Shown here piece after piece: positions 46,988 through 50,044 of a stretch of DNA of 64,000 nucleotides. The position numbers and the translations under genes were made by a program. The notes beneath the pieces are model-generated. The model was not told where the DNA came from. It worked only from the letters and a program-made list of their open reading frames with translations, and ran no database searches. The stretch lies in assembly GCA_938007965.1 (NCBI GenBank), contig CALLMH010000075.1:1-64000 (forward strand). Direction: 5' to 3'. The first letter of the stretch is position 1, and the number at the start of each line of letters is the position of its first letter. The DNA is from an uncultured Saprospiraceae bacterium (GTDB taxonomy: Bacteria; Bacteroidota; Bacteroidia; Chitinophagales; Saprospiraceae).

Positions 46988-47291
46988 GATGTATCAATCT
47001 GTATATGAGTCAAAAAATCCCAAATGTACTCCAATATCCTCAGTAGACCTATCAATAATTGTCGCTTAATCATTATTTTGATCATTGAAGGAATTATTAC
47101 TTTAAAGTATGATCAATTTCTTCTAGATTGTTTTCAGTTGTATCGGGCTACATATTTGATCTATAAACAGGGTAAATGTTTTCCCTCATATAGAAAGAAA
47201 AAGTCTGAAATCGAAGTGATCCAAGTATAGCTTACTCATAGGAAATATAAGCTATCCTATAAACCAACCAACAGTCTAAAAAAAGTAAAAT
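46988..47291. other. 304-bp gap upstream of the AraC-type regulator
   Basis: No credible gene. A CATATTTG word occurs at 47151-47158, as in the two regulon promoters downstream, but without the 21-bp-spaced repeats, so the regulator gene probably does not share their control. Confidence 0.35.
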
Positions 47292-48131
47292 ATGAAGTTA
47301 ACTTATAGTAGTCTCAAAGATAATGACATCTTTATTTTGACTAATTTCTCCTGTCAGCCATCACAGGAACTATTGAATGATCGTAATCTGTACAAGATAT
47401 TATGGAGTAAAAAAGTAAGCACTAATATAGTAGTCGATGATTATAATCTAGAACTAAAACCCAATGAGGTTATATTCTGTACACCGCTCAATATCATGGA
47501 GGTTCCTATGGATTCCGAAGATCTTTTGGCGATTGTTTTCAACAAAGAATTTTTCTGCATTCAGACCAATGATGATCAGGTATCATGTCATGGCTTTCTG
47601 TTTTTCGGATCTTCCCAACCTCCGATAATTCAATTGAACGAAAAAAAATCTGCCGACTTCGAAAATATAATTCGCCTATTCAAAGAAGATTTATTGATCA
47701 AGGATCACCTACAAGGAGAGATGCTCCGTTCGTTATTGAAACGCTTACTGATTCAATCTACGAGAATGGTCAAAAATGAACTCCCCCAACCTACAATACC
47801 TAATGCCCAATTGAATGTTATAAGAGAGTATAATATCCTTGTCGAAAAACATTTCAGAGAGTATCATCATGTAAAAGACTACGCAAACTTGATGTTCAAA
47901 TCTCCAAAAACATTATCCAACTTATTTCCAAAATTCAGCAATAAGACACCGAGTATGGTTATAAATGATCGTATCTTATTAGAGGCTAGACGTCTTCTAT
48001 TGTATTCTGATCTTTCTACTAATGAGATCGCAACCGAACTAGGATATAAAGATCCTGGTCACTTTTCTAAGTTTTTTAAGAAGCACGAAGGCCTAAGTCC
48101 CTCCGTTTTTAAGAAAAGTAAGCAAAATTAA
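47292..48131 (+). CDS. AraC family transcriptional regulator
   Basis: A 279-aa regulator. The N-terminal 170 residues look like a small cupin or ligand-binding domain (VVDDYNLELKPNEVIFCTPL), and residues about 180-279 form the double helix-turn-helix (VKDYANLMFKSPKTLSNLFP and STNEIATELGYKDPGHFSKF, ending FKKHEGLSPSVFKK). It ends 18 bp before the first of two direct repeats that precede the cupredoxin-like gene, and a matching pair lies before the AhpD-like gene. I infer that this protein activates both. Confidence 0.93.
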   Translation: MKLTYSSLKDNDIFILTNFSCQPSQELLNDRNLYKILWSKKVSTNIVVDDYNLELKPNEVIFCTPLNIMEVPMDSEDLLAIVFNKEFFCIQTNDDQVSCHGFLFFGSSQPPIIQLNEKKSADFENIIRLFKEDLLIKDHLQGEMLRSLLKRLLIQSTRMVKNELPQPTIPNAQLNVIREYNILVEKHFREYHHVKDYANLMFKSPKTLSNLFPKFSNKTPSMVINDRILLEARRLLLYSDLSTNEIATELGYKDPGHFSKFFKKHEGLSPSVFKKSKQN

Positions 48132-48149
48132 ACTCTACATATTTCATAT

Positions 48150-48216
48150 AAGGAAACATTGACAATTACTAAGGAAATATTGACCTATAGCATGGGTTGA
48201 ATCCGCCCCATATTTG
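48150..48216 (+). promoter_or_regulatory. Activator-type promoter of the cupredoxin-like gene
   Basis: AAGGAAACATTGAC (48150-48163) and AAGGAAATATTGAC (48171-48184) are direct repeats 21 bp apart, two helical turns. CATATTTG (48209-48216) is the -7 box. There is no -33 TTG at 20 nt, and the second repeat covers that position, as expected for activation by an AraC-type protein. The same layout is at 49383. Confidence 0.65.
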
Positions 48217-48251
48217 CATTATAATCTTAACAACAAATAAAAAATATTATA

Positions 48252-48917
48252 ATGAAAAAAATGAAATTAGTATTCGTAGCATTATTTGCTCTTACTCTCT
48301 CTTTCGGAAATGCACAAGTAAACCAAGTAAATCTAGACCAAACTGATGGGAAATTTGTACAGGAAAATATAACCTTGACTCCGGGTGACTACCAATTTAA
48401 TATTTCTAATACAGATGTAGATCACGAAGTTGGTTTTGTATTAGTACCAAAAGGAAAAACTGGCCCTGAGAATCATATCAAGAATGCATATGTTACAGCT
48501 CCGGTAAAATCAGGTGCTAGCTCACCGTCAAAGGTAGTCACTCTCTCAGCTGGAGAATATGAATATTTCTGCCCGCTGAATCCTACGCCGAAGTACACAC
48601 TGACAGTACGTGATGATGTAGAACCTATCAAACTGACTCAAGTAGAAGGTAGATTCGAAAATCAAGAAGTGACAGTCTCTGAAGGTTCTTATCAATTCGA
48701 AATCGCCAACAATGGTGTAGATCACGAAGTTGGATTCGTACTGGTACCAAAAGGAAAATACGATGCAAGCAATCATATAAAAGCAGCTTATGTAACCGCT
48801 CCTGTAGCAGACGGAAGTAGCTCCAAAACAGGCATCGTAGAACTCTCAGCTGGAGAATATGAATATTTCTGCCCACTGAATCCTACGCCGAAGTACACGC
48901 TGACAGTACTAAAATAA
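48252..48917 (+). CDS. Exported protein with two cupredoxin-like domains
   Basis: A 221-aa protein with a signal peptide (1-21, ending SFGNAQ) and two domains of 100 residues each (about 23-120 and 123-220), alike along their length. Each has NHIK.AYVTAPV, a DHEVGFVLVPKGK strand with the first His, and SAGEYEYFCPLNPTPKYTLTV with the Cys. The usual second His and Met after the Cys (C-x-x-H-x-x-M type) are absent; LNPTP follows instead. A type 1 copper site is therefore doubtful. It is probably periplasmic. It follows an AraC-type regulator and has an activator-type promoter. Confidence 0.85.
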   Translation: MKKMKLVFVALFALTLSFGNAQVNQVNLDQTDGKFVQENITLTPGDYQFNISNTDVDHEVGFVLVPKGKTGPENHIKNAYVTAPVKSGASSPSKVVTLSAGEYEYFCPLNPTPKYTLTVRDDVEPIKLTQVEGRFENQEVTVSEGSYQFEIANNGVDHEVGFVLVPKGKYDASNHIKAAYVTAPVADGSSSKTGIVELSAGEYEYFCPLNPTPKYTLTVLK

Positions 48918-48938
48918 AACACCCTTCTTTCCATCTAG

Positions 48939-48975
48939 ATGGCTAGGTTCGCATAAGTGGATCTAGCCATTTTTA
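48939..48975 (+). terminator. Terminator of the cupredoxin-like gene
   Basis: ATGGCTAG and CTAGCCAT form an 8-bp stem, with an inner partly paired loop, followed by TTTTTA. Confidence 0.7.
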
Positions 48976-48995
48976 TGTTATAAATAGGGGTACTC

Positions 48996-49335
48996 AAAAG
49001 TAAGGAGAGCAATACAATTGTGTGACGATTTGGTTTTTGAGTCGATAGTCGATAATGGCCTTAGCTAGCTTTGGTATTTAGATTAAATTTTGGCGTTAAG
49101 AGTTAGATAGAGTCATGATGTAAGAGATGGCTTGTTTAGCAATCACTTGTTCTTTGTTTCGTTTCTATGTCAAGAATGAAATCACAAGCTAGCGGCGAGC
49201 GAAATGATATGCTTAAATATATTGGATCGTTTTTACGATTAAATCAAAAATAAGGGGGTAATATTTTCAGAAAGTAAGACGGTCATAGTCTAGTGAATAA
49301 AAGGATATTCAGTTTTTTGGAAGATCCCTAACTAG
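48996..49335 (+). repeat. Dispersed intergenic repeat, long copy B
   Basis: It starts AAAAGTAAGGAGAGCAATAC, like copy C at 51946. A middle part of about 170 bp (about 49082-49255) is absent from copy C but present, inverted, in copy D at the window start. It ends with the common AAGTAAGACGGTCATAGTCT at 49272 and GGATATTC. It fills most of the 590-bp gap before the AhpD-like gene. No gene is seen in it. Confidence 0.75.
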
Positions 49336-49382
49336 TCTAATAATTGGTTAATTGGTGTTTTTTTTAGTGGAATATGTGCAAT

Positions 49383-49449
49383 AGGGAAAAACTGACATGA
49401 ATAGAGGAAGTATCACCCTATAACAAGGGGTAAAACAGCTGCATATTTG
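49383..49449 (+). promoter_or_regulatory. Activator-type promoter of the AhpD-like gene
   Basis: AGGGAAAAACTGAC (49383-49396) and GAGGAAGTATCACC (49404-49417) lie 21 bp apart and are diverged forms of the repeats at 48150 and 48171. CATATTTG (49442-49449) begins 38 bp after the start of the second repeat, exactly as in the other promoter. Confidence 0.6.
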
Positions 49450-49507
49450 TAATGTAATTAAAAGGGAAGCAACCCTAACAATAATAAATAAACTAAAAAT
49501 AATAAAA

Positions 49508-50044
49508 ATGAACACACAATTTAACGTTCCAACAAGAAGTGAAGTAAGTCAAACGAATCAGGCAATTTTTGACAATCTAGAAAAAGGGCTTGGTTTCGTT
49601 CCTAATATTTTCGCTACTTACGCATACAGTGAAAATGCACTTAAAAACTATCTCGACTTTAGCAATGCAAAAACATCTCTAAAAACAAAAGAAAAAGAAG
49701 TTGTAAATCTAGCGGTCAGTGAAGCGAATCAATGCGAATACTGTCTTGCAGCCCACACAGCGATTGCTGGCATGAATGGCTATACACCTGAACAGATATT
49801 GGAATTGCGAGCGGGAAAGGCATCGTTTGACACGAAGTTGAATGCATTAGCAAATTTAGCAAAAGACATCACTGAAAACAGAGGCGCTACTAGTCCTGAA
49901 GCATTGAATGAATTCTTCGCACAAGGATGGACTAAAGAGAATCTGATAGATACAATCAGCTTGGTAGGAGATAAGACAATAACCAACTATCTTCACAAAA
50001 CTACACAGGTGCCTGTAGATTTTCCTGTTGCTCAACCGCTATAA
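49508..50044 (+). CDS. Carboxymuconolactone decarboxylase / AhpD-like protein
   Basis: A 178-aa cytoplasmic protein of the AhpD fold. The redox CxxC-x-x-H motif is QCEYCLAAHTAIAG near residues 75-89, the pattern of peroxidase-type members that receive electrons through the Cys pair. The N-terminal segment FDNLEKGLGFVPNIFATYAY is typical. Members reduce alkyl hydroperoxides or act as decarboxylases; the substrate is unknown. It shares a promoter module with the cupredoxin-like gene and is probably part of the same AraC-type response. Confidence 0.9.
   Translation: MNTQFNVPTRSEVSQTNQAIFDNLEKGLGFVPNIFATYAYSENALKNYLDFSNAKTSLKTKEKEVVNLAVSEANQCEYCLAAHTAIAGMNGYTPEQILELRAGKASFDTKLNALANLAKDITENRGATSPEALNEFFAQGWTKENLIDTISLVGDKTITNYLHKTTQVPVDFPVAQPL

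Follow-up and report, generated by a model that had tools for sequence, protein, structure and literature searches.

Two promoters built on one plan, a pair of direct repeats placed before a -7 box, lie in the window (the whole stretch of DNA analysed here, 64,000 nucleotides from an uncultured Saprospiraceae bacterium). They are probably the targets of a thiol-oxidant-responsive AraC-type activator that would bind the two repeats at promoters lacking a -33 element. One promoter precedes a gene for a cupredoxin-like protein and the other a gene for an AhpD-like protein of the CMD family, and a gene for an AraC-type regulator stands beside them. On comparison of sequences, the operator, its pairing with one subfamily of AraC regulators and its set of targets are well supported.

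All elements of the two promoters are on the + strand. In the cupredoxin promoter, half-site 1, AAGGAAACATTGAC, is recognised at 48150–48163 from the sequence and from the sites of relatives; half-site 2, AAGGAAATATTGAC with a conserved CTA behind it, occupies 48171–48187 as a direct repeat of half-site 1, 21 bp further downstream. The -7 box CATATTTG follows at 48209–48216, and its columns are 90-94% pairwise identical across sites. The AhpD-like promoter consists of half-site 1, AGGGAAAAACTGAC (49383–49396), half-site 2, GAGGAAGTATCACC with CTA and again in direct orientation (49404–49420), and the box CATATTTG (49442–49449), all three being supported by the sequence and by relatives' sites. 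The repeats, the CATATTTG boxes and the spacings of 21 bp and 38 bp had been reported in a preliminary description of this DNA and are all present; its count of 52 identical positions out of 76 proved exact when 48150–48225 and 49383–49458 were realigned without gaps. It had also pointed to words shared between repeat and box. These do belong to the 52/76 match, but the word GGG varies in relatives and is not a conserved element, so that part of the identity is incidental. Similarly, the -33 TTG is indeed missing, but the 14-bp second repeat, which had been said to cover the -33 slot, ends just upstream of it, and it is the conserved CCTA extension that covers the slot. With this extension, half-site 2 of the cupredoxin promoter reaches the -33 slot.

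Chance resemblance of the two promoters is excluded by shuffling, by a genome-wide pattern scan and by a matrix made from relatives only. Dinucleotide-preserving shuffles of one 76-mer (n=5000) gave a mean of 22.7 identities (sd 3.8) and a maximum of 37, against the 52 of the real pair, and the runner-up pair of 76-mers anchored on CATATTTG within the window reached 35. The genome scan used a degenerate 66-nt pattern, allowing up to 3 mismatches and with the reversed pattern as control; in the 4.19-Mb genome it found 2 places, both of them the window promoters, and the control found 0. A sequence profile search of the same genome returned the window sites at E = 6e-17 and 5e-16 and the next match at 0.01. 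Weak own-genome matches on two other contigs (C58 and C97) cover the -7 region only, without repeats, and were set aside as generic promoters. With the relatives-only matrix, built from 12 relatives' sites with both window sites left out, the window sites reached 64.8 and 62.0 bits, and no other place in the window scored above -12.

Orthologues of the regulator with 62-81% identity occur in other Saprospiraceae MAGs, and the gene order AraC, cupredoxin, CMD is conserved in the orthologous loci. The repeats, which the preliminary description had expected in relatives that retain the regulator, are kept at nearly every readable orthologous locus: the 21-bp direct repeat and the 38-bp spacing to CAT(A/C)TTTG are found in front of at least one of the cupredoxin and CMD genes, sometimes of both. 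This conservation lends support to its reading of the layout as that of an AraC-type activator at both promoters. Pairwise identity over 15 aligned sites is 66-72% in the half-site cores and 94% in the -7 box, as compared to 35% in the 21-nt spacer. Since the operator and box columns are conserved and the spacer is not, the sites are under selection. None of 53 aligned sites, all with 21-bp repeats, has a TTG at N19-N22 before the box. The -7 consensus of flavobacteria has been described as TAnnTTTG (PMC9723704).

The bases just 3′ of the -7 box (48217–48223 and 49450–49456, columns 68-74 of the site alignment; consensus TATTGTNAA) are 54-59% pairwise identical, against 34-35% for the spacer, and perhaps mark the region of the transcription start. 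In one genome (G012, L061:3751-3795), the region upstream of the cupredoxin gene has two intact half-sites, but no CAT(A/C)TTTG box at the usual distance from them. An AraC relative at locus L068 has no operator site, and the loci from the first protein search (L045-L060) gave no operator at a convincing score, the best being L053 with E 0.055.

A first profile (R1), trained on CMD and cupredoxin promoters and applied at E <= 0.01, found matches in 72 of 150 family genomes. A strong site and a subfamily AraC occur together in 50 of the 150 genomes, a site only in 2 and an AraC only in 19 (Fisher p 2e-21, with shared ancestry ignored); the 19 were counted under stricter search filters, and some of them carry the divergent clade described below. 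A subfamily AraC lies less than 2.5 kb away from 11 of 11 sites of at least 50 bits and from 49 of 84 sites overall, chance being about 0.06%. Most sites without an adjacent AraC are in genomes that encode a subfamily AraC at another locus, which fits a regulator that acts in trans.

A divergent paralogue of the regulator supplies a further view of this pairing. On another contig of the same genome (C41:1333-1410; L073, L197), an AraC protein with 33% identity and the cysteine pair kept adjoins an OsmC-thioredoxin operon. The promoter of this operon has a variant half-site, GNACTTNTGTCC, in a double repeat, GAACTTTTGTCC / GTACTTCTGTCC, that keeps the distances of 21 bp and 38 bp. In relatives, variant repeats resembling these lie upstream of genes for OsmC, thioredoxin and cupredoxin (L208, L213, L142). 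The letters of the operator thus change together with the clade of the regulator while the spacings stay unchanged.

Although the profile reads promoter sequence alone, the genes that it leads to are of few kinds. Of 53 family sites, 21 have a CMD gene as the first gene downstream, 19 a cupredoxin gene, 5 thioredoxin, 2 MsrA and 1 OsmC; 2 sites precede other genes and 3 a contig end. A second batch of sites has further CMD, MsrA, OsmC, thioredoxin and cupredoxin genes downstream, and Pfam confirms the thioredoxin, OsmC and PMSR/SelR identities. CMD and cupredoxin genes are over-represented among the matches because the first profile was trained on their promoters; this bias does not affect the thioredoxin, OsmC, Msr and AhpC/TSA targets. 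With a broader profile (R2), sites were found in 26 of 395 genomes from across the phylum, mostly within the same taxonomic class. In this sample, the genes behind 7 of 21 sites do not belong to the profiled classes, and 2 of these are OsmC and AhpC/TSA by Pfam, which adds an AhpC/TSA peroxiredoxin and another OsmC to the genes found behind sites outside the family. The commonest arrangement in distant relatives is an AraC gene followed directly by a CMD gene, with the operator in between. Shared regulation of the cupredoxin and AhpD-like genes is supported by these sequence comparisons, and the "small undescribed regulon" of the preliminary description proves to be the local form of one that is family-wide and partly phylum-wide. 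A literature search, with subscription journals mostly outside its reach, found no published description of an AraC/CMD/cupredoxin regulon in Bacteroidota. Outside the family, operator matches also stand before a YHS-domain protein, before an ECF sigma factor and, beside AraC-CMD, before DUF2938-like membrane proteins (L170:1581-2024, L163:1602-2102, L165:1010-1459, L169:1603-2043). These genes are possible further members of the regulon.

The regulator is a protein of 279 aa (47292–48131, + strand) with a cupin-like N-terminal domain and an AraC HTH domain, as assigned by Pfam and Foldseek. Its gene ends at 48131, 18 bp upstream of the first repeat, as previously noted. The C-terminal HTH matches Pfam HTH_18 (E 3e-21) and also HTH_AraC, and it is present in all 27 members of the subfamily alignment; by Foldseek, the model of the N-terminal domain resembles the cupin-like fold of Rns, ToxT and AraC. 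All 38 subfamily members checked have both Cys89 and Cys99, which are absent from the unrelated AraC proteins that this genome also encodes. The segment from Cys89 to Cys99, encoded at 47556–47588 (+ strand) and marked by the motif FxCIxxxDxxVxCxG, is proposed as a thiol switch; in the predicted structure, it is a loop of low confidence (pLDDT 60-69). W38, D49 and N84 are near-invariant in the subfamily as well. Upstream of araC, a putative promoter spans 47128–47158 (+ strand), with a TTG at 47128–47130, 20 nt and CATATTTG at 47151–47158; this is the canonical -33/-7 spacing, without repeats. Neither profile R1 nor R2 matched upstream of araC, and autoregulation through the operator was rejected. 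The araC promoter is probably of the ordinary -33/-7 type and the regulator made constitutively.

The layout seen here, in which two helical turns separate the direct half-sites and the second one reaches the -33 slot, is that of class II activation by AraC-type proteins. The regulator, as a dimer or as two molecules, would occupy the two direct half-sites RGGAANNATTGAC, whose distance of 21 bp corresponds to two helical turns and would place both on the same face of the DNA. As the downstream half-site ends on the slot that normally holds the -33 TTG, the bound regulator would recruit or activate RNA polymerase at the -7 box in place of a -33 element, in the manner of class II activation. The lack of a TTG in 53 of 53 sites, set against the TTG-N20-CATATTTG of araC itself, suggests that a constitutive regulator probably switches on target promoters that would be unable to work alone. 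The signal is most likely the oxidation of protein thiols, whether by HOCl- or HOSCN-like oxidants, organic peroxides, quinones or disulfide stress, and would be read by the Cys89/Cys99 pair. We infer this redox signal because the targets mostly handle oxidised thiols, methionine or peroxides and because the two cysteines are invariant; binding, activation rather than repression and the disulfide switch are likewise inferred steps. The outputs would be the AhpD-like CxxC peroxidase-type enzyme and the secreted cupredoxin-like protein, to which relatives would add thioredoxin, OsmC, MsrA/MsrB and AhpC/TSA.

The likeness of the two promoters could have another origin, namely recent duplication of one of them with no regulation in common. 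The genes are only 0.6 kb apart and the promoters highly identical; against this, identity falls off towards the edges and within the spacer, across species only the operator and box columns are kept, and the same site recurs upstream of other, unrelated genes. Duplication alone was accordingly rejected as very improbable. The regulator might also act as a repressor in unstressed cells and be released on oxidation, given that half-site 2 at the -33 slot could block polymerase too. This appears improbable, as promoters without a -33 element at all 53 sites look activator-dependent, and the position and direct orientation of the half-sites are those known from class II AraC-type activators.

A different doubt concerns the signal. 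The pairing of operator and regulator may be real while the regulator senses a small ligand, such as an aromatic compound, a quinone or a fatty acid, in its cupin-like pocket; the cysteines would then be structural or metal-binding, and the redox enzymes would detoxify the ligand compound. The modelled N-terminal fold, which is like that of the ligand-binding AraC, ToxT and Rns, would suit such a pocket, and so would the near-invariance of W38, D49 and N84 besides the cysteines; CMD proteins, moreover, take their name from aromatic-ring catabolism. However, the common theme of the targets is thiol or methionine-oxidation chemistry rather than any single catabolic pathway, and both Cys89 and Cys99 are invariant in every member checked. 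A small-ligand sensor is therefore conceivable but unlikely, and activation in response to thiol oxidants is retained as the preferred reading.

The cupredoxin-like gene (48252–48917, + strand) encodes a two-domain secreted or envelope protein of 221 aa, identified by Pfam, alignments and fold. Cupredoxin_1 is matched at 7e-15, and the Foldseek matches are multicopper oxidases and nitrite reductases; the alignment profile found no match among PDB sequences, though the fold search did give matches. The copper ligands of plastocyanin are two His, one Cys and a Met. This type 1 set is not found in the cupredoxin-like protein: in the FCPLNPT motif of these targets, Asn takes the place expected for the second copper His, which makes a classical blue copper site unlikely, and several repeats have also lost the first His. 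The cupredoxin-like proteins of the regulon, judged by their residues, may not be copper proteins. They consist of one to three tandem domains, and every domain ends in CPLNPT.

The AhpD-like gene (49508–50044, + strand) encodes a peroxidase-type protein of 178 aa with the CMD fold, which matches Pfam CMD (2e-14), NCBIfam ahpD_dom (1e-14) and peroxid_rel, and the AhpD-like PDB entries 6e8l and 3lvy. E64, C76-x-x-C79 and H83 are invariant among relatives, and Tyr78 stands at the fifth catalytic position, which is His in AhpD; the roles of these residues we take to be those of M. tuberculosis AhpD. The same residue roles have also been applied to RclX (PMC7950407).

The closest functional parallel appears to be RclR-RclX of Pseudomonas aeruginosa, in which the AraC-type regulator is constitutive and RclX keeps four of the five AhpD catalytic residues (PMC7950407). 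As here, an AraC-type regulator adjoins an AhpD-like gene of the CMD family; it activates that gene in P. aeruginosa, whereas activation is proposed for the present system. Four of the five residues (E64, C76, C79 and H83) are kept here too, with Tyr78 at the fifth. The phylum is different, and the regulon here also covers thioredoxin, OsmC, Msr and cupredoxin. E. coli RclR (rclABC) is likewise an AraC-family protein with two cysteines and adjacent defence genes, whose operon is activated on HOCl; it senses HOCl through Cys21 and Cys89, with a disulfide formed on oxidation (PMC7464077). In contrast, the invariant pair here is Cys89/Cys99, and the targets differ. Homology to RclR does not run over the full length, as an hhalign comparison of the subfamily alignment with E. 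coli RclR covers residues 191-279 only (the HTH). A Cys21 is present in 19 of 38 subfamily members, but without N-terminal homology the RclR positions 21 and 89 are not alignable.

The layout itself recalls AraC at I1-I2, where a protein with a cupin and an AraC HTH domain binds two direct half-sites spaced by 21 bp, of which the downstream one adjoins the upstream promoter element. It differs from it in having the Bacteroidota -7 box CAT(A/C)TTTG instead of -35/-10 elements, and a looping site is not apparent. OxyR-type and other peroxide regulons have the same kinds of target (AhpC/AhpD-like, thioredoxin, Msr, OsmC), but the regulator here is AraC-type and not LysR- or MarR-type.

The chances seem to us about even that these proteins form a widespread Bacteroidota class of thiol-oxidant-sensing AraC regulators, in which a sensor domain unrelated to that of RclR, with a Cys89-Cys99 switch, would act through a fixed double-repeat promoter on genes for protein-thiol and methionine repair, peroxidase and envelope cupredoxin. 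To our knowledge, few AraC regulons outside sugar use have been defined in Bacteroidota. If the reading is true, it would provide a ready-made operator motif for an oxidant-defence regulon of this phylum, name a candidate family of redox sensors and place uncharacterised CMD and cupredoxin-like genes in a function; the covariation of half-site variants with the regulator clade would make a recognition code testable. As a whole, the sequences point to a widespread oxidant-defence circuit across Bacteroidota, sporadic outside the family.
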